Source of the DNA: Symbiobacterium thermophilum IAM 14863
GTDB taxonomy: Bacteria > Bacillota > Sulfobacillia > Symbiobacteriales > Symbiobacteriaceae
DNA: 64,000 bases
Assembly: GCF_000009905.1 (NCBI RefSeq)
Contig: NC_006177.1
Coordinates: forward strand, 1,240,001-1,304,000
Direction of reading: 5' to 3'
The notes beneath the pieces are model-generated. The model worked only from the letters and a program-made list of their open reading frames with translations. It was not told the origin of the DNA and did no database searches. Position 1 is the first letter of the stretch; each line of letters opens with the position of its first letter. The position numbers and the translations under genes are program-made. Of this stretch, positions 2,076-17,630 are shown one piece after another.

Positions 2076-3449
2076 CTATGCATCCACGGCCCGCCAGCCG
2101 CCGGCGGATGCCGCCTCCGCGACCTGCAGGGCCGCCACGCCCGCCGTGAGCGGCGCCAGCGGCTCGCCCTCGCCCTCCGCCGCCCGGCGAAGACGGACGA
2201 ACCCCTCCCGGATCATCTCCCGGTACGTCGCCTCCCCGCCGGCCACCGCCGCCTCGACCCACGTGCGCCCGTCCGGCAGGGGACGGACCTCCACGCGAAC
2301 CAGGTCCGCCGCGGCCTCCTGGAGCGCCCGGGCCGCCTCCGGCTCCACCCGGAGGACGCCGGTCAGGCGGCGCGGGATCCAGTCCTCGATCCGCAGCCAA
2401 CCGGCGGTGAAGCCCAGTTCCCGCACCTGGTGCTCGTCCCGCCGACGGACGAACCCGTGGTAGAACGTCGCGGCCAGGTGCCAGGGCCGGCCGTCCAGCT
2501 CCCCGGCGTACTCTACCGCCGCCAGGGCCCGTGCCGCCGCGTCCGGATGGCGGGGATGGGGCCAGTCGGCGCCCCACGCCCGCACGGGCCGACCGCCCAG
2601 CACCCAGGCCGCCTCGTCGAAGAAGTGCACGCCGTGCTCTATCAGGACGCCGCCGCTGCGGGAGCGATCCCAGAACCAGTGGTCCGGGGGCAGTTCGCCG
2701 CCGGCCCAGTTCTCCACGTGCCACCGCTCCGGAAGCCCCAGCAGGCCGGCCCGGTACCAGCGGCGGACGCAGGCGATGAGCGGGCTGGCCCGCATGACGA
2801 AGTTCAGCGCTGCGACCACGCCCCGGCTCCGGGCCCTCAGCGCCAGCTCCCGCAACGGCTCCGCGGCCAGCGCCCCCGGCTTCTCCAGGAACAGGGCCTT
2901 TCCCGCGGCGATCGCGGCCCCGGCCACTTGCGGTTGCAGGTCGGGCGGCGTGGCCACCAGCACCGCGTCCAGGTCCGGTCGCTGCGCCAGCGCCACGGCG
3001 TCGTCCACGGCCTCGGGGGCGCCGGGCGGCAGCCCCGCCACTTCCCGGGCCGCGCGCCACGCCGCCAGCGCCGCGGCCCGGCTCGCCTCGCTGCGGGCGG
3101 CGACCGCCGCCAGCTCCACGTCCGGCAGCGGCGCCAGGGCCGTCAGGACGAACCGGCCAAACGCCCCGGCGCCCGCCAGCCCGATGCGCCAGGGGCGACG
3201 GGAGGAAATGGCCCCGTCTCCCGCCGCTCGGTTGCGCCAGGGGCTGAGGGAGGGACTGGCCCCGTCTCCCGCCGCTCGGGTGCGCCAGGGGCTGAGGGAG
3301 GGATTGGCCCCGTCTCCCGCCGCTCGGTTGCGCCAGGGGCTAAGGGAGGGGCTGGCCACGTCCCCCGCTGTTCCGGCAAGCCAGGGCCGGGCAGGGAGCG
3401 GGGCTCCCCCTTGCCCGGCCTGAACCTCGTGCCCATGGAATACCTGCAT
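2076..3449 (-). CDS. Gfo/Idh/MocA-family oxidoreductase with repeated N-terminus
   Basis: The core starts at about residue 87 with a Rossmann motif GLAGAGAFG, followed by LEKPGALA (EKP motif of the family) and a C-terminal substrate domain with HGVHFFDEA. Such enzymes use NAD(P) to oxidise or reduce sugars and cyclitols. The first roughly 85 residues are four copies of a 16-residue repeat of the type SLSPWRNRAAGDGA, encoded by a 48-bp tandem DNA repeat. The ATG at 3449 has no well-placed ribosome site, so translation may begin inside or after the repeat. It follows the phosphomannomutase gene by 12 bp, so it belongs to the glycosyl operon. Confidence 0.8.
   Translation of the reverse strand: MQVFHGHEVQAGQGGAPLPARPWLAGTAGDVASPSLSPWRNRAAGDGANPSLSPWRTRAAGDGASPSLSPWRNRAAGDGAISSRRPWRIGLAGAGAFGRFVLTALAPLPDVELAAVAARSEASRAAALAAWRAAREVAGLPPGAPEAVDDAVALAQRPDLDAVLVATPPDLQPQVAGAAIAAGKALFLEKPGALAAEPLRELALRARSRGVVAALNFVMRASPLIACVRRWYRAGLLGLPERWHVENWAGGELPPDHWFWDRSRSGGVLIEHGVHFFDEAAWVLGGRPVRAWGADWPHPRHPDAAARALAAVEYAGELDGRPWHLAATFYHGFVRRRDEHQVRELGFTAGWLRIEDWIPRRLTGVLRVEPEAARALQEAAADLVRVEVRPLPDGRTWVEAAVAGGEATYREMIREGFVRLRRAAEGEGEPLAPLTAGVAALQVAEAASAGGWRAVDA
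3187..3377. repeat. 48-bp tandem repeat, four units
   Basis: Units start at 3187, 3235, 3283 and 3331, each opening GCGCCAGGGGC and containing TGGCCCCGTCTCCCGCCG. The middle units differ at only a few bases; the last is more diverged. The period is a multiple of three, so the minus-strand frame stays open through it. Confidence 0.9.
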
Positions 3450-3461
3450 CGCGGACTCGCC

Positions 3462-4895
3462 CTACTCCCAACTTACGGGGCCCAGCTCCGGGAAGCGGGC
3501 CAGGGCTTCGGCCATCTCCGCCTTCACCCGCTCCAGGTCCTCGGTCGAGCGCCCCTCGCACCGGAGCACCAGCACCGGCTGGGTGTTGGACGCCCGGACC
3601 AGCCCCCAGCCGCCGGGGAAGAGGACCCGCGCGCCGTCCACCGTCAGCACCTCGTACCGGTCCCGGAAGTGCCGCACCACGCCCTCGACCACCGCGGCCT
3701 TGCGCTCCTCCGGGCAGTCCACCCGGATCTCGGGGGTGGACGGGTACCGGGGCACGTCCGCCCACAGCGCCGACAGCGGCCGGCCGCTCTCCGCCACCAG
3801 CCGGCAGAGCCGGGCCCCGGCGTAGAGGGCATCGTCGAAGCCGTAGTAGCCGTCGGCGAAGAAGAGGTGGCCCGACATCTCGCCGGCGAAGGGGCCGCCC
3901 AGCTCCCGCAGGCTCTTCTTCACGTAGGAATGGCCCGTCCGGTGGAACTGCGGCCGGCCGCCCAGCCGCTCGATCTCCTCCACCAGGGCCTGGGAGCACT
4001 TGACCTCCACCAGGGCGGTGGCGCCGGGGTAGCGGGGGAGGATCTCCCGCCAGAAGAGGATCATGAGCTGGTCGCCCCAGAGGATCTGGCCCTGGTCGTC
4101 CACGACGCCCAGCCGATCGCCGTCGCCGTCGAAGGCCAGCCCCAGGTCCGCCCCGGTCTCCCGGACCGTGCGGATCAGGTCCTGCAGGTTCTCGGGCCGC
4201 ACCGGATCCGGATGATGGTTCGGGAAGGTGGGGTCCGACTCGCAGTAGAGGGGGATGACCTCACAGCCCAGCGCTTGGAAGAGCCCGGGTGCGATGGGGC
4301 CGGCGGTGCCGTTGCCGGCGTCCACCACTACTTTCAGGGGGCGGTGGAGTGCCACCCGGCCGGCGATCATCTCGCAGTAGCTGGGGATCGGGTCTCGGGT
4401 GCGCACCCGGCCCGCTCCTGCCGCGGGGCCAGTCCCGCCTCGCGGATCCATCTCCGCCTCGGGGGAGGCGTCTGCCAGGGCCCCGGCCCTGCGGCGGAGA
4501 TCCTGGATCGCTTCCCCGTAAAGCGTGCCGGGGCCGAGGCAGAGCTTAAAACCGTTCTCGTCGCCGGGGTTGTGGCTGGCGGTGATCATGACCGCCGGGT
4601 CGATGCCGTAGAACTCCCGAGCCCAGTAGAGCACGGGGGTGACCACCTGCCCGATGTCCAGCACGTCCAGCCCCTCGCGGGTGATGCCCTCCGTAAGGGC
4701 CCGGGCGAGGGCGGGGGACGAGAGCCGGTTGTCCCGCCCCACCAGCACCTCGCGGAAGCCCCGCTCCCGGGCGAGCCGGGCGAAGGCCCGCCCGACCAGG
4801 CGGGCCGTCTCATCGGTGATCGTCCTGCCGTACACGCCGCGGATGTCGTACTCCCGGAAGATGACCTCCGGCAGCGGGGAAATTGTCTGGGTCAT
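3462..4895 (-). CDS. manB: Phosphomannomutase/phosphoglucomutase
   Basis: Interconverts hexose 6-phosphate and hexose 1-phosphate. All family motifs are present: the phosphoserine loop TASHNP (about residue 95), the metal loop DGDGDR, the sugar loop GEMSGH and the C-terminal phosphate loop RASNTQPVLVLR. Length (477 residues) is normal. Two ATGs are possible: 4901, which overlaps the preceding gene's stop as TGATG, and 4895, which lies at better distance from GAGGTG; 4895 is chosen. With the nucleotidyltransferase and glycosyltransferase genes upstream it would supply mannose- or glucose-1-phosphate. Confidence 0.92.
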   Translation of the reverse strand: MTQTISPLPEVIFREYDIRGVYGRTITDETARLVGRAFARLARERGFREVLVGRDNRLSSPALARALTEGITREGLDVLDIGQVVTPVLYWAREFYGIDPAVMITASHNPGDENGFKLCLGPGTLYGEAIQDLRRRAGALADASPEAEMDPRGGTGPAAGAGRVRTRDPIPSYCEMIAGRVALHRPLKVVVDAGNGTAGPIAPGLFQALGCEVIPLYCESDPTFPNHHPDPVRPENLQDLIRTVRETGADLGLAFDGDGDRLGVVDDQGQILWGDQLMILFWREILPRYPGATALVEVKCSQALVEEIERLGGRPQFHRTGHSYVKKSLRELGGPFAGEMSGHLFFADGYYGFDDALYAGARLCRLVAESGRPLSALWADVPRYPSTPEIRVDCPEERKAAVVEGVVRHFRDRYEVLTVDGARVLFPGGWGLVRASNTQPVLVLRCEGRSTEDLERVKAEMAEALARFPELGPVSWE

Positions 4896-4900
4896 GTCCA

Positions 4901-7174
4901 TCACCTCACAGCCGTGCTGAGCGCCGAGCGCTGCTCCAGACCGTAAGCCGCCATCAGCCATGCCAGGGTGGACTCCGCGCCCTGGTTGCGGTTCACGCCG
5001 TGGGGGTTCAGGCCGTCGTGGCAGCCGCCTGTCTCGGGGTCCAGCAGCGGCACGCCCAGCGCGTTCCTTCCCGTGAACCACCGGGCCGCGTCCAGCGCCA
5101 TGCCGTGCCAGACCTTGTCCCCGGTGACCGCCCCGGCCTCCTGGCAGGCCAGCACCATCGCCGTCGCCTCCAGCGGCTGCTGGTCAAACTCGGCCCGGCG
5201 TCCGCCCCGCACGTACCAGCCGTCGTTGCCGATGGGCCAGAAGACGCCGTCGCGGAAGGTCGCCCCGGCCAGGAACTCCAGGGCCGTCAGGCCGATGCGC
5301 CGATACTCCGGGACGTCCAGGATTCGTCCCGCCCGCAGCAGGGCGTAGGGGAGGAGGGCGTTGTCGTAGGTGAGCCGGTCCTCGAACCAGGCCCAGTCTC
5401 GGGTCGCGTGTTGCTTCCAGGCATCGGTCAGCCCGTCCGCGGCCCGGATCAGGTGGGCCCGCACCTCGTCGTCGGTGGGCGCCCCGTCAGGACGGCCGTC
5501 TGCGCGCCGGTGCTCCAGCCACTCGGCCATGGCAACCGCCACGCCCGCCCGGCCCCTCAGGGTGCGAACGGAGCCGCACGGCGCGAGTCCGCGCCGGAAC
5601 AGGTGGGCGGCCGTCCAGGCGACCGAGCTGCCGCCGAGCTGCGTCGCCGCGGCGGCCAGACCCCACAGGCAGCGGGCCTGGCAGTCCTCCGAGCGATCTT
5701 CGGCCAGCGGGTTGCGGTCGTAGCTGAAGGCGTTGTGGAACCAGCCGTCGGGCCGCTGGGCGTAGGCCAGGAAGGCCAGGTAGGTCTCGCTGAGCTGGGC
5801 CGTCGCCTCCCCTGCCCGGGCGGCCCAGACCGAGACCAGCAGGGCCCGGGCGTTGTCGTCGGAGGTGTACCCGGTGGTGAGATTGGGGATGGGGCCCACC
5901 GCGTGCTGGATCACCCCGGTGGGGTCGGTCAGCCGCTGCAGGTGGGAGAGCCGGGGCCTGGGCAGGGCCTTCTCCCGGGTCCCGCCGGGCCGCTGCCGGA
6001 CCCGCACGCTGAGCGCGCCGCCCTGCGCCCGTGCTGCGCGCCGCTGCAGCCGGCCGACCAGGTCCAGGTACGACTGGCCGACTTCGGGCCACGTGAACCC
6101 CTTCGCCCGGTTCCGCGCGGCCGCGGACAGGCTGGTTCGCCAGCCGGCGTCGGCGGCCAGTGCGCTGAGCGCCCGCCCCATCGCCGCGGCGTCGTGGAAG
6201 GGCACCAGCAGGCCGGCTCCTTCGCCCAGCAGCTCCTGCGCGTACACGAACGGGGTGGAGATGATCGGCTTGCCCATGGCCAGCGCGTAGGTGAGCGTAC
6301 CGCTGCTGATCTGCTGCGCCCCCGGGTAGGGGACCAGGTAGATGTCTGCCGCCTGCAGGAAGCCCAACAGTTCGTCTTCATCCAGATAGCGGTTGACGAA
6401 CCGCACGTGCCCCTGGATCCCCAGTTCCGCCACCTGCGCCTCGAGGCCCTGCCGGTACCGCTCGCCCTCCCGCCGGAGGACCTCGGGGTGGGTGGCGCCC
6501 ACCACCAGGTATAGGAGGTCCGGGCAGCCCCTGGATGCCAGGGCGACGGCCTGCAGAGCCGTCTCGATGCCCTTGCCCGGGCCGAGGAGGCCGAAGGTCA
6601 TGACCACGGTCCGGCCGGACAGCCCGAGCCGGTTCTTCCATTCCGCCGGTGTTCCGGGCGGCGGCGCGGGGACGCCGTGAGGGATGTAGGCGATGCGTTC
6701 GGGATCGGCGCCGTAGACCTGCTGGATGATCTCCCCGCCCCGCCGGGCCATGACCACCGTCGCGTCGATGCGCTGCAGCAGCGCCGTCATGGCGTGCCGG
6801 TACTCCGGCTCGGGATCGCTCAGGATGGTGTGCAGGGTGGCGATGACCGGGATCTCCAGCCGGTCCAACAGGTGGTTCACCATGACACCGGCCTGGCCGC
6901 CGAAGATGCCGAACTCGTGCTGCAGCAGCACCGCGTCGTACCCGCCGTGGTTCAACAGGTGGGCCGCCCGGCGGTAGTCGATTTCCAGGTCGTCCCGGAT
7001 CACGGTCACCGTCTCGGGGAGCTGCTCCGCCGGCGCGTCACGCTTGACCATCGCCGCCACGGCCACGTCCTCCGCCCCTGCGGCCAGAAGGCCCCCGCGC
7101 AGGTGCGCAGAGAACGTCGCCAGGCCGCACTGCCGGGGCGGGTACGTGCTGACGATCGCAAGCCTCGCACTCAC
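4901..7174 (-). CDS. Glycosyltransferase (GT4-like) fused to an all-alpha C-terminal domain
   Basis: A 757-residue protein. Residues 1 to about 390 form a GT-B glycosyltransferase (STYPPRQCGLATF near the N-terminus, LQHEFGIFGG, FGLLGPGKGIETAL, and the family-1 donor-site region ending GKPIISTPF). After a short basic linker, residues about 400-757 resemble an (alpha/alpha)6 barrel of glycoside-processing enzymes (TSDDNARAL, FGHNAF-like WFHNAFSYDR, NQGAESTLAWL). The acceptor is unknown. GTG at 7174 follows GGAGGTGA, which overlaps the upstream gene's stop, so the two are translationally coupled. Within the operon it most likely uses the nucleotide sugar made by its neighbours. Confidence 0.85.
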   Translation of the reverse strand: MSARLAIVSTYPPRQCGLATFSAHLRGGLLAAGAEDVAVAAMVKRDAPAEQLPETVTVIRDDLEIDYRRAAHLLNHGGYDAVLLQHEFGIFGGQAGVMVNHLLDRLEIPVIATLHTILSDPEPEYRHAMTALLQRIDATVVMARRGGEIIQQVYGADPERIAYIPHGVPAPPPGTPAEWKNRLGLSGRTVVMTFGLLGPGKGIETALQAVALASRGCPDLLYLVVGATHPEVLRREGERYRQGLEAQVAELGIQGHVRFVNRYLDEDELLGFLQAADIYLVPYPGAQQISSGTLTYALAMGKPIISTPFVYAQELLGEGAGLLVPFHDAAAMGRALSALAADAGWRTSLSAAARNRAKGFTWPEVGQSYLDLVGRLQRRAARAQGGALSVRVRQRPGGTREKALPRPRLSHLQRLTDPTGVIQHAVGPIPNLTTGYTSDDNARALLVSVWAARAGEATAQLSETYLAFLAYAQRPDGWFHNAFSYDRNPLAEDRSEDCQARCLWGLAAAATQLGGSSVAWTAAHLFRRGLAPCGSVRTLRGRAGVAVAMAEWLEHRRADGRPDGAPTDDEVRAHLIRAADGLTDAWKQHATRDWAWFEDRLTYDNALLPYALLRAGRILDVPEYRRIGLTALEFLAGATFRDGVFWPIGNDGWYVRGGRRAEFDQQPLEATAMVLACQEAGAVTGDKVWHGMALDAARWFTGRNALGVPLLDPETGGCHDGLNPHGVNRNQGAESTLAWLMAAYGLEQRSALSTAVR

Positions 7175-7180
7175 CGCCCC

Positions 7181-8212
7181 TCACCTCCAGCCGGCCAGCA
7201 GCACGTTCTCGACGGTGCCGCCGCCGATCCCCGTCGCGAAGCCGATGACAGAGTGGCGCACGGTGGCGCCGGCGCCAACCCGCGCCCCGTCCCACAGCAC
7301 CGAGTCGCTGATGCGGGCGCCCTTGGCCACCAGGCAGCCCGCGCCGATCACCGCCCGGGGGCCGACCTGCGCGCCGGCCTCGATCACCGCGCCGGACCCG
7401 ATGTAGACCGGCGGCATGATCCGGGCGTCCGGGGAGACGTCCGCGTCGTCCGCCTGCCAGTGGGCCGGGCCGCGCACGGGGCCGGAGACCGGGATGGGGC
7501 AACGCCCCTCCAGGATGTCCCGGTGCAGTTGGAGGTAGCGGTCGCCGGTGCCGATGTCCTTCCAGTACCCGGTGCAGAGGCAGCCGTAGACTCGCACGCC
7601 GTCCCGGAGCAGGGCCGGGAAGGTCTCCCGCTCCACCGAGACGGGTCGCTCCGGCGGGATCCAAGACAGAACGCCCGGGTCGAACACGTACACACCGGCG
7701 TTGACCATCCGGCTGTCCGTCTCACCCGGGCGTGGCTTTTCCACAAATCGCGTAACACGACTGTTCTTATCCAGTTCTACAGCGCCGTAGGCGGACGGAT
7801 CGGCCACCTCGACCAACCCGATGGTCACCTGGGCACGGTGCTGGCGATGGAACTCTAACAGGGCATTCAGATCAAATGTCTGTACAATATCCGCGTTCAG
7901 GATGAGTAGGGTGTCCGTGGGGTCCGGTCCGGCGGCGAACCGGATGGCACCACCGGTTCCAAGGGGCTGGGGCTCAACCGCGAACCGCAGCCGTACGCCC
8001 GGGGGCGATTCCCTGAAGTAGTCCGTGACGACCTGCCCGCCGTGGCGGAGGCTCAGGGTGATGTCGGTGACCCCGAAGGCGGCCAGCTGGTCGATGAGCC
8101 GACTCAGCCAGGGTTTGCCGAGTACAGGCACCATTGGCTTCGGCAGCTCAACCGTCAGGGGGTGCAGCCGCGTACCCAGCCCTCCGGCCAACAGGATTGC
8201 GCGAACAGCCAT
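7181..8212 (-). CDS. Mannose-1-phosphate guanylyltransferase-like nucleotidyltransferase
   Basis: Transfers NMP to a sugar 1-phosphate. The N-terminal domain opens AILLAGGLGTRLHPLT (GxGTRL nucleotide loop), with PKPMVPV, NADIV as metal site and FVEKP; residues from about 255 form left-handed beta-helix repeats typical of this enzyme class. ATG at 8212 is preceded by GAGGAGG at good spacing; an upstream extension of 14 residues is discarded. GDP-mannose is likely given the adjacent phosphomannomutase, but a glucose enzyme cannot be excluded. It is the first gene of the operon and lies directly behind the CIRCE operator. Confidence 0.88.
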   Translation of the reverse strand: MAVRAILLAGGLGTRLHPLTVELPKPMVPVLGKPWLSRLIDQLAAFGVTDITLSLRHGGQVVTDYFRESPPGVRLRFAVEPQPLGTGGAIRFAAGPDPTDTLLILNADIVQTFDLNALLEFHRQHRAQVTIGLVEVADPSAYGAVELDKNSRVTRFVEKPRPGETDSRMVNAGVYVFDPGVLSWIPPERPVSVERETFPALLRDGVRVYGCLCTGYWKDIGTGDRYLQLHRDILEGRCPIPVSGPVRGPAHWQADDADVSPDARIMPPVYIGSGAVIEAGAQVGPRAVIGAGCLVAKGARISDSVLWDGARVGAGATVRHSVIGFATGIGGGTVENVLLAGWR

Positions 8213-8240
8213 GAAGATCCCTCCTCGGCCCGAGATACTA

Positions 8241-8267
8241 CTAGCACTCGTCATAGGTGAGTGCTAA
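8241..8267 (-). promoter_or_regulatory. CIRCE operator (HrcA site)
   Basis: On the minus strand the sequence is TTAGCACTC, nine bases, GAGTGCTAG. This differs from the CIRCE consensus (TTAGCACTC-N9-GAGTGCTAA) only in the last base. It sits between the promoter and the start codon at 8212, the normal position for repression by HrcA. The expected output is derepression on heat shock. Confidence 0.9.
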
Positions 8268-8276
8268 CGGTTCCAT

Positions 8277-8305
8277 ATTGTACCGCATTTCGGTGCGGGC
8301 AGCAA
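8277..8305 (-). promoter_or_regulatory. Sigma-A-type promoter of the glycosyl operon
   Basis: On the minus strand, TTGCTG (8305-8300), a 17-base spacer and TACAAT (8282-8277). The start point would fall near 8270, so the CIRCE element covers roughly the first 28 transcribed bases. Confidence 0.8.
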
Positions 8306-8440
8306 CCTCCCGGGCCCACGCTGACAAGTATATGACGCTTCTGCAGGTTGCAGAACCCGCTCGTTCACGTCCGTGCGTTGTGTGACAACGGCGAGTGGGC
8401 CAAGCCGGGCTCGTATCGGGTGGGCGCCGTCCCGCGGTTC

Positions 8441-9750
8441 GAGGCGGAGTATACACCTGGGGTTCGGGTCGGACTGCACAATTCGCCTCGAAGGTGGCGG
8501 CGGTGGTCGGGTTCGGGGCGTCGAAAGCGGCGGTGGGGGTTGGGTTCGAGGCGAAATGTGCACGTGGGGTTCGGGTCGGACTGCACAGTTCGCTTCGAAG
8601 GTGGCGGCGGTGGTCGGGTTCGGGGCGTCGAAAGCGGCGGTGGGGGTTGGGTTCGAGGCGAACTATGCACGTGGGGTTCGGGTCGGACTGCACAGTTCGC
8701 CTGGAAGGTGACGACGAGGGCGGGTCAGAGGCGTCGAGTGCGGTTGTGGGAGCTCGGTTCGAGGCGGAATGTGCACGTGGGGTTCGGGTCGGACTGCACA
8801 GTTCGCCTGGAAGGTGACGACGAGGACGGGTCAGAGGCGTCGAGTGTGGTTGTGGGAGCTCGGTTCGAGGTGGAATGTGCACGTGGGGTTCGGGTCGGAC
8901 TGCATAATCCGCCTCGAAGGTGACGACGACGGGCGGGTCAGAGGCGTCGAGTGCGGCGGTGGGAGTTGGGTTCGAGGCGGAATGTGCACGTGGGGTTCGG
9001 GTCGGACTGTACAATCCGCCTCGAAGGTGGCGACGAGGGGCGGGTCACAGGCGTCGAGTGCGGTTGTGGGAGCTCGGTTCGAGGCGGAATGTGCACGTGG
9101 GGTTCGGGTCGGACTGCACAGTTCGCCTGGAAGGTGACGACGAGGACGGGTCAGAGGCGTCGAGTGTGGTTGTGGGAGCTCGGTTCGAGGCGGAATGTGC
9201 ACGTGGGGTTCGGGTCGGACTGCATAATCCGCCTCGAAGGTGACGACGAGGGGCGGGTCAGAGGCGTCGAGTGTGGTTGTGGGAGCTCGGTTCGAGGTGG
9301 AATGTGCACGTGGGGTTCGGGTCGGACTGTACAATCCGCCTCGAAGGTTGCGGCGGGGGGCGGTCTGGACGTGTCGAAGTCGGCGGCGGGGGTTGGGTTC
9401 AAGGCGTCGAACGCGGCGGTGGGAGTTGGGTTGGAGGCGGAATGTACACCTGGGTTTCGGGTTGGACTGCACAATCCACCTCGAAGTCGGCGACGGGGGT
9501 TGGGTCGGGGGCGTCAAATGCGGCGGTGGGAGTTGGGTTCGAGGCGGAATGTACACCTGGGTTTCGGGTTGGACTGCACAATCCACCTCGAAGTCGGCGG
9601 CGGGGGTTGGGTCGGGGGCGTCAAATGCGGCGGTGGGGGTTGGGTTGGAGGCGAAATGTACACCTGGGCCTCGGGTTGGGCTGCACAATCCGCCTCGAAG
9701 CTTGCGGCGGGGTTCGACTTGGGTGTGTGTCTCGTGTACAGGCCACAGGG
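8441..9750. repeat. 107-bp hairpin satellite array, about 12 units
   Basis: Units start with GAGGCGGAATGTGCA or a variant at 8441, 8548, 8655, 8761, 8867, 8974, 9081, 9187, 9294, 9434, 9541 and 9648. Lengths are 106 or 107 bp, except one of 140 bp, and the last unit decays near 9720. Inside each unit the first 15 bases are the approximate reverse complement of TGCACAATCCGCCTC about 19 bases further on, giving a long imperfect hairpin with loop CGTGGGGTTCGGGTCGGAC. The other half of each unit is also conserved, so it is not a repeat-spacer array. Several reading frames run open through it, but the period is not a multiple of three and unit length varies, so I judge it non-coding. It occupies the gap between the PBP terminator and the CIRCE promoter. 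Confidence 0.93.
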
Positions 9751-15749: not shown

Positions 15750-17630
15750 GTGTGCCCGGCATGGGCGCTGACTTGGCGGTGAGAGTCCGCTGCGGGCGAG
15801 GCAGCACGAGCCCGCTAGCCAAAGGCAAGGGTGTCCGTCGCGAGGCGGAATCTGGAGGAAGCCGGAGGCAAAGCCACGACCCGAGGAACACGAACCTCAT
15901 ACGAGGCTGTGCCGCCTGGGTGAGCTGGCGAACCACAGCAAAACCCGAGGCTGCCAAAGGGCGGTGCGGTAGATGGGGCGGGTGCGGGGCGAAGGTCAGC
16001 GTCCTTACCCGGGGAGGTCTACCGGAAAACGCCAGCAACGCTGGTAACCCGGGCCGAGAGGCCCGGCTGAACCGGCAGAAGTCAGCAAAGGCCATAGTAC
16101 CGGCAGGGGGACGCCCCGAGCGGGAAGGGTCGAACGTCAGGAGAGGGGTGAACCCGTTGCGTTCGAGCAGCCTGCGACAAACGCAGAAGACCCCGCACGG
16201 GGCCTGCTCGCCGGAAGTAGCGGTGAAGCCGCAAGGGACGGCGAGAGGGCGGAGTGGGCAGCCGGCACAAGACGGAACGTCACCCCGCGGGGAGCACAGC
16301 AACCTGATGGAGCAGGTGGTGGCCAGGGAGAACATGCTGGCCGCCCTGAAACGGGTGGAGCGGAACGGAGGCGCTCCCGGCGTGGACGGTGTCCCCACCG
16401 AACGGCTGCGGGACCAGATTCGCGTGGAGTGGAGCCGCATCCGTGAGGAACTGCTCCAGGGGACCTACAGACCGCAGCCAGTCCGCCGGGTCGAAATCCC
16501 GAAACCGGGCGGCGGCAAGCGGATGCTGGGGATTCCCACCGTGATGGACCGCCTGATCCAACAGGCACTCCTGCAAGTACTGACGCCGATCTTTGACCCG
16601 ACATTCTCCGAATCCAGCTACGGCTTTCGGCCGGGGCGGCGGGGTCATGATGCGGTCAGGAAGGCACGTCAGTACGTGGAGGAAGGGTACGACTGGGTCG
16701 TGGACATGGACCTGGAGAAGTTCTTCGACCGGGTCAACCACGACGTGCTGATGGCCCGCGTGGCGCGGCGGGTAACGGATAAGCGTGTGCTGCGGCTGAT
16801 CCGGCGGTACTTACAGGCCGGGGTCATGCTGAACGGGGTAGTCGTGGCGACGGAGGAAGGGACGCCGCAGGGCGGTCCGCTGAGTCCGCTGCTGGCGAAC
16901 ATCCTGCTGGATGACCTCGACAAGGAGCTGGAGCGCCGCGGGCACCACTTTGTCCGGTACGCCGATGACTGCAACATCTACGTCCGCAGCAAGCGGGCGG
17001 GAGAACGGGTCTACAGGAGCGTGCGCCACTTCCTGCAGGAGCGGTTACGGCTGAAGGTCAACGAGGAGAAGAGCGCAGTGGACCGGCCGTGGAAGCGGCA
17101 GTTCCTCGGGTTTAGCTTCTACAAGCACCGGGGAGTGCGCATCCGGCTGGCCCCGAAGAGCCTGAAACGCGTGAAGGACAAGCTCCGCACGCTGACGGAC
17201 CGCAACCGCAGCCAGAGCATGGAGGACCGAATCCGGTGCCTGAATGCCTACTTGCGGGGCTGGGTTGGGTACTATGCGCTCTCCGATGCCAGGTCAGCCT
17301 TTGAAAGACTCGAAGGATGGCTGAAGCGTCGGCTGCGAGCATGCGTATGGAGGCAGTGGAAGCGTGTACGCACGCGCTTTCGGGAGTTACGCGCCCTCGG
17401 TTTGCCCGAATGGGTAGTCTACCAACTCGCCAACAGCCGCAAAGGCCCGTGGCGGATGGCAGGTGGCCCACTAAACAGCGCCCTGGGCGACGCCTACTGG
17501 CGTGCCCAGGGGCTGATAAGCCTGACCGAATGCTATGAAGCGACTCGTCAATCTTGGCGAACCGCCGGATGCGGACCCGCATGTCCGGTGGTGTGAGAGG
17601 ACGGGGGCTAGCCGCCCCCTCCTACTCGAT
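15750..17630 (+). mobile_element. Group II intron (bacterial class C, IIC type)
   Basis: The 5' end GTGTGCCCGGCATGGGCG at 15750 has the GUGYG start of group II introns. Domain V and VI are visible as GAACCGCCGGATGCGG (from about 17561) through CCTCCTACTCGAT, ending near 17630. A reverse transcriptase/maturase without an endonuclease domain is encoded inside. The element sits immediately downstream of a perfect terminator hairpin, the documented target preference of IIC introns. About 560 bases of structured RNA precede the ORF. Length is about 1.88 kb, and both RNA ends are present, so it may still be active. The exact ends are read by eye and could be off by a base or two. Confidence 0.9.
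16307..17596 (+). CDS. ltrA: Group II intron reverse transcriptase/maturase
   Basis: Copies and helps splice its host intron. The 429-residue protein opens MEQVVARENMLAALKRV, with GAPGVDGV, RRVEIPKPGGGKR, the catalytic YADD (VRYADDCNIY) and a maturase X domain (YLRGWVGYYALSDARSAF). It stops without an HNH endonuclease, as in class C introns. The last 15 or so codons run into domain V, with the stop at 17594-17596. The frame is open far upstream, but those codons belong to structured intron RNA, so the ATG at 16307 preceded by GGGGAG is preferred. Confidence 0.93.
   Translation: MEQVVARENMLAALKRVERNGGAPGVDGVPTERLRDQIRVEWSRIREELLQGTYRPQPVRRVEIPKPGGGKRMLGIPTVMDRLIQQALLQVLTPIFDPTFSESSYGFRPGRRGHDAVRKARQYVEEGYDWVVDMDLEKFFDRVNHDVLMARVARRVTDKRVLRLIRRYLQAGVMLNGVVVATEEGTPQGGPLSPLLANILLDDLDKELERRGHHFVRYADDCNIYVRSKRAGERVYRSVRHFLQERLRLKVNEEKSAVDRPWKRQFLGFSFYKHRGVRIRLAPKSLKRVKDKLRTLTDRNRSQSMEDRIRCLNAYLRGWVGYYALSDARSAFERLEGWLKRRLRACVWRQWKRVRTRFRELRALGLPEWVVYQLANSRKGPWRMAGGPLNSALGDAYWRAQGLISLTECYEATRQSWRTAGCGPACPVV

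Follow-up and report, generated by a model that had tools for sequence, protein, structure and literature searches.

The HrcA/CIRCE regulon comprises the class I heat-shock genes, groESL and hrcA-grpE-dnaK-dnaJ, and HrcA regulons are usually seen as sets of chaperone genes. Stored mannose is known from mannogen, the intracellular beta-1,2-mannan of Leishmania, whose metabolism involves GDP-mannose and phosphorolysis. In bacteria, a GDP-mannose and beta-1,2-mannoside phosphorylase cluster was described in Thermoanaerobacter by Chiku et al., and the accessible part of that paper reads it as serving GDP-mannose salvage (PMC4264767). Mannogen is mentioned in what is accessible of both this paper and PMC3290622, and no mention of HrcA was found in the accessible part of the former. 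Here, we focus on an operon of Symbiobacterium thermophilum IAM 14863 which is predicted to make a mannose-type sugar nucleotide and transfer its sugar, and which begins with a putative HrcA operator. It lies in a stretch of 64,000 nucleotides (hereafter the window; positions 1,240,001 to 1,304,000 of contig NC_006177.1) with 68% G+C, taken from a genome of 3,566,135 bases in one contig. Table 1 gives its features.

Table 1. Features of the operon and its control region in the window.
Feature	Position	Strand	Basis or remark
SigA-type promoter TTGCTG-17-TACAAT	8277..8305	(-)	-35 at 8305-8300, -10 at 8282-8277
CIRCE operator TTAGCACTC-ACCTATGAC-GAGTGCTAG	8241..8267	(-)	N9 spacer; match to consensus
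Ribosome-binding site GAGGAGGG	8219..8226	(-)	sequence, before the ATG at 8212
Sugar-1-phosphate nucleotidyltransferase with hexapeptide tail	7181..8212	(-)	profile and structure-relative matches
GT4 (retaining) glycosyltransferase fused to a C-terminal alpha-helical domain	4901..7174	(-)	domain, fold search
Phosphomannomutase/phosphoglucomutase (PMM/PGM)	3462..4901	(-)	start codon overlaps the glycosyltransferase stop codon
Gfo/Idh/MocA-family oxidoreductase	2076..3449	(-)	likely fourth gene; fourth in G043 too

The operator matches 17 of the 18 arm bases of the reference TTAGCACTC-N9-GAGTGCTAA, with a spacer of 9 and the last base as its sole deviation. It begins 9 nt past the end of TACAAT, which places it at or just after the predicted start of a SigA-type promoter. 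The original prediction had spoken of a CIRCE element at the predicted +1 to +28 region of a good promoter, and the first half of that statement stands. The second half applies to the -10 box (5/6 of the consensus) but not to the weak -35 box, which matches only 3/6, the reason why the promoter scan does not list TTGCTG-17-TACAAT. At the equivalent place in relatives the promoter is mostly near consensus. A large tandem array with a 107-base unit (window 8435-9712; about 9 copies at 90% match, together with a related array) begins some 130 bp upstream of the promoter, and further along the window a group II intron is marked by three Rfam matches (15834-17630).

A scan of the whole genome, proposed as a check in the original prediction, yielded five CIRCE sites at up to three mismatches and none with the reversed pattern as control. 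The four sites other than that of the operon precede hrcA, grpE-dnaK, groESL and a gene for an FmdB-type zinc-ribbon protein (Zn_ribbon_8); hrcA itself is found at about 543.0-544.0 kb of the genome, with its own CIRCE before it and another before grpE. The small FmdB-type Zn_ribbon_8 gene is preceded by CIRCE with 0-2 mismatches in six sampled Symbiobacteriales genomes (L065:2660, that is G000:C1:1399159, as well as L104, L107, L109, L113 and L116), and it is apparently a second HrcA target, undescribed so far.

In two sampled genomes of the same genus the operon is absent, so the comparison within the genus is uninformative. Across the Bacillota, 29 genomes from 10 family-level bins have CIRCE with 0-3 mismatches at the orthologous operon, where it takes up the same position relative to the promoter; 18 of these 29 belong to two closely related genera, which makes the family count the better measure. 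Conservation in relatives, on which the original prediction had staked itself beforehand, is thereby borne out. In most relatives the operator starts 4-9 nt past the -10 box of a promoter that is usually TTGACA-17-TATAAT or close to it, and no clear promoter of this form was found in the stretch inspected in G043, G074 and G498. G043 has the same four-gene order and a site with two mismatches, while a site with three mismatches precedes an NTP transferase-glycosyltransferase operon in G074 (a SAM riboswitch lies near the latter on the opposite strand, L082:6943-7061). A search of the phylum with the nucleotidyltransferase gave sites in families f111, f66, f140, f137 and f107, and later in f78 and f179. 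Of the 37 genomes in the class of G345, the nucleotidyltransferase gene is present in 24 (E <= 1e-90), 20 of which also have the operator; one of the four that do not is G501, where a contig end truncates the sequence. G461 has its genes at two separate loci, NTP-PMM (L293) and GH130-glycosyltransferase (L394), with CIRCE at each.

The site is not found everywhere. At least ten relatives with the nucleotidyltransferase-glycosyltransferase pair show no site at up to four mismatches near it (site-less genomes with the pair: G081, G413, G369, G124, G144, G505, G203, G392, G101, G269 and G491), and for this reason the coupling of the operon to HrcA is frequent but not universal. Eighty glycosyltransferase-fusion loci of other genomes, obtained by a contig search with the glycosyltransferase protein, also contained zero CIRCE sites at up to four mismatches; since these loci are without a recognisable adjacent nucleotidyltransferase, they were discarded as the wrong comparison set, and the nucleotidyltransferase was used as the query instead. 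The absence of the site from some relatives with the operon could speak for a functionless chance match. However, dinucleotide shuffles of the window give 0.01 CIRCE matches at up to three mismatches and the expectation per 450 bp is about 1.5e-4 (up to three mismatches, uniform bases), and yet 10 family bins share the site at this place. With the shuffles, the reversed-pattern control and the conservation all against it, a chance match is so improbable that we consider it ruled out.

When 16 sites are aligned, the arms are nearly invariant save for positions 7 and 8 of the upstream arm, and the 9-nt centre varies. The upstream arm is degenerate in many of the relatives' sites, and the commonest form among them is the asymmetric TTAGCAGCC-N9-GAGTGCTAA. 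The pattern TTRGCANCC-N9-GAGTGCTAA has nine exact matches in 398 genomes, eight of which precede the mannose operon, always in the operon's orientation, and the ninth precedes hsp20. Because a chaperone gene shares it, the asymmetric form would be an HrcA site rather than an unrelated operator, as far as this pattern of occurrence argues. The same asymmetry bears on a rival reading of the palindrome. The predicted transcript starts with it, its arms might base-pair in the mRNA, and it could thus serve chiefly as a hairpin for mRNA stability or translation and not as an HrcA site. The combination of TTAGCAGCC with GAGTGCTAA loses pairs and is nevertheless strongly conserved, the sequence itself, beyond its pairing, matches the groESL and hrcA sites, and searches of this region of the window and of the leaders of the operon at six relative loci found no Rfam family, all of which makes a hairpin role very unlikely.

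The remaining genes with CIRCE in the genomes examined are mostly chaperone genes, namely groESL, hrcA-grpE-dnaK, clpB, htpG and hsp20; in G461 and G243 those identified were groESL, hrcA, clpB and htpG. The sites at clpB in G461 (L388:2996), at htpG in G243 (L389:4676) and at hsp20 in G020 and G077 (L281:3353 and L269:774) putatively represent extended HrcA regulons in Bacillota. Two further locations were noted outside the chaperones. In genus g4 (G022 and G055; L102:5026 and L120:978), a divergent GT4 glycosyltransferase gene and one for an FAD-dependent oxidoreductase have a perfect CIRCE between them, and in three genomes of the Thermaerobacter type, degenerate CIRCE sites with 2-3 mismatches precede a gene for an extracellular solute-binding protein of the ABC sugar transporter type (L119:4832 in G043, L251:4713 in G075 and L250:4908 in G056), with TTGACA-17-TATATT directly before the site in L250 and L119.

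What the operon makes has to be judged from its proteins, and domain and profile matches uphold the original calls of a nucleotidyltransferase, a glycosyltransferase and a phosphomannomutase. The best NCBIfam match of the nucleotidyltransferase is mannose-1-phosphate guanylyltransferase, at 285 bits against a cut-off of 440, and it reaches none of the NCBIfam equivalog cut-offs. Three of its five strongest relatives of solved structure are GDP-mannose pyrophosphorylases, the top one being an unspecified nucleotidyl transferase family protein. The glycosyltransferase has a GT-B fold with a Glycos_transf_1 domain according to both domain search and predicted structure (mean pLDDT 89), in which the N-terminal half is GT4 and the tail helical. 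The fold search clearly identified the GT4 half, with MshA and Pim mannosyltransferases nearest, while a single solved structure, that of an exported Yersinia protein which is itself uncharacterised (7TEM), clearly matched the tail; similarity to domains of the C5-epimerase/GH88/GH127 type was seen for a relative of this tail. The reading frame of the oxidoreductase contains 4.3 copies of a 48-base repeat in its N-terminal part (window 3163-3368), and the true start of this gene may lie downstream.

The neighbours of the operon's orthologues point to mannose as well. GH130 genes adjoin 67 of 80 glycosyltransferase relatives; the window contains none, and S. thermophilum has two in tandem at 1,456,956-1,458,750 of the genome, about 0.21 Mb from the operon. 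The GH130 protein encoded just upstream of the site in G345 is almost the same as 9FJ8, a 1,2-beta-oligomannan phosphorylase of solved structure, and the genus of G345 is therefore regarded as Thermoanaerobacter-like; its gene order is that of Teth514_1788-1785. Where the original prediction had left the product as mannose- or glucose-containing, the GDP-mannose pyrophosphorylase-like nucleotidyltransferase, the PMM/PGM and the GH130 genes beside the orthologues favour the first alternative over the second, and the product likely contains mannose. That the glycosyltransferase makes beta-1,2-mannan was considered and dropped, because GT4 enzymes retain configuration and an alpha linkage is expected.

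GH130 phosphorylases release mannose-1-phosphate, and the Thermoanaerobacter cluster was published as one for GDP-mannose salvage, to judge by the accessible part of PMC4264767. Together with the degenerate CIRCE at sugar-uptake genes of Thermaerobacter-type genomes, this lends some support to an operon that is under HrcA control but has a metabolic role, in which GDP-mannose salvage from beta-mannosides, or else the storage or recovery of carbon, takes the place of protein or membrane protection. Salvage alone would leave the chaperone-type control unexplained, and the site is kept in operons without GH130 (S. thermophilum and G043), so that we see this as possible but not as the probable reading.

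Expression data come from Thermoanaerobacter X514, in which Teth514_1784-1789 and hrcA-grpE-dnaK-dnaJ (Teth514_2078-2081) were both among 72 upregulated genes in a comparison at 6% ethanol (PMC3751872). This co-induction stems from an ethanol-adapted mutant, and under a mild ethanol shock that study reports no induction of heat-shock proteins (PMC3751872). Going by the ten same-genus genomes which have the site, X514 presumably carries CIRCE at its Teth514 cluster too. The authors of that study proposed that Teth514_1785-1787, induced at 6% ethanol, glycosylate alcohol (PMC3751872), and one could extend this to a glycosyltransferase which detoxifies small alcohols or other stress metabolites by attaching mannose or another sugar to them, with HrcA as a sensor of solvent damage. 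The proposal was based on annotation, the site occurs across many families not known to be connected with alcohols, and the GH130 neighbours would go unexplained; detoxification is thus an unlikely function. In a related organism, Thermoanaerobacter kivui, deletion of hrcA caused no growth phenotype at 72 C (PMC12044746).

The reading we prefer, and hold to be likely, is that HrcA represses the operon and that heat or protein stress releases it, so that more mannose is transferred from GDP-mannose. Sitting at the transcription start, HrcA would block RNA polymerase until heat or another protein-folding stress occupies GroEL; HrcA would then lose activity and the operon would be transcribed alongside groESL and hrcA-grpE-dnaK. 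PMM/PGM would supply mannose-1-phosphate, the nucleotidyltransferase would turn this into GDP-mannose, from which the GT4 enzyme, extended by its C-terminal helical domain, would pass the mannose to an acceptor, probably in alpha linkage since such enzymes retain configuration. In many relatives, GH130 phosphorylases of the operon or its neighbourhood may interconvert beta-mannosides and mannose-1-phosphate.

With the operator conserved at one promoter position over this many families, the original claim that CIRCE/HrcA controls a sugar-nucleotide operon is strongly supported as a prediction from sequence, and we strongly infer such control. Mannose as the sugar, binding by HrcA and induction by heat would follow as inferred parts of the same scheme, and it is very probable that the heat-shock response, here and in relatives of about ten families, includes the making or remodelling of a mannose-containing sugar. 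Whether thermoprotectant or envelope glycan, the role that was suggested for the product is hypothetical. Speculative and less likely than not is the thought that many Bacillota share, as a conserved non-chaperone arm of their HrcA heat-shock response, a mannosyl glycan produced on demand, which would be the bacterial equivalent of protective mannose polymers, with the asymmetric CIRCE tuning its response differently from groESL. The searchable literature yielded no earlier report that ties HrcA to this operon, although a RegPrecise entry or a subscription paper may exist; going by that literature, there are strong grounds for adding the operon to the HrcA regulon as a new and widely conserved member that encodes no chaperone. 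An HrcA switch on it in about ten families would mean that carbohydrate chemistry has been overlooked in the heat-shock response of many Bacillota, some of them thermophiles, and it offers a testable role for a widespread GT4-plus-tail-domain protein that is usually encoded beside GH130 mannoside phosphorylases.

Among described systems, Leishmania mannogen offers the idea of a mannose polymer tied to GDP-mannose and phosphorolysis; the enzymes differ, and such a polymer would be hypothetical in S. thermophilum. The GT4 mannosyltransferases PimA, PimB', the mycobacterial methylmannose mannosyltransferase and MshA are nearest to the window's glycosyltransferase by both sequence and fold and are like it in the GT4-fold N-terminal half, at about 20% identity, whereas they do not have its extra C-terminal helical domain. 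The Thermoanaerobacter Teth514_1784-1796 cluster, as given in the accessible part of PMC4264767, has the nucleotidyltransferase, the GT4 enzyme and the tail-domain gene in the window's order, and a CIRCE-like site precedes the nucleotidyltransferase gene in G345 and nine genomes of its genus. In these Thermoanaerobacter-type genomes, the glycosyltransferase and the tail are two separate genes with GH130 phosphorylases upstream in the cluster, while in the window they are fused and followed by PMM/PGM and the oxidoreductase, with GH130 elsewhere in the genome. With the HrcA/CIRCE regulon, finally, the site of the window has in common the operator's sequence, its length and its position at the transcription start, in a genome that encodes HrcA and has canonical sites at both hrcA and groESL. 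It differs from the known regulon in that its target is a sugar-nucleotide/glycosyltransferase operon and not a chaperone gene, and in that many relatives use the asymmetric upstream arm TTAGCAGCC.
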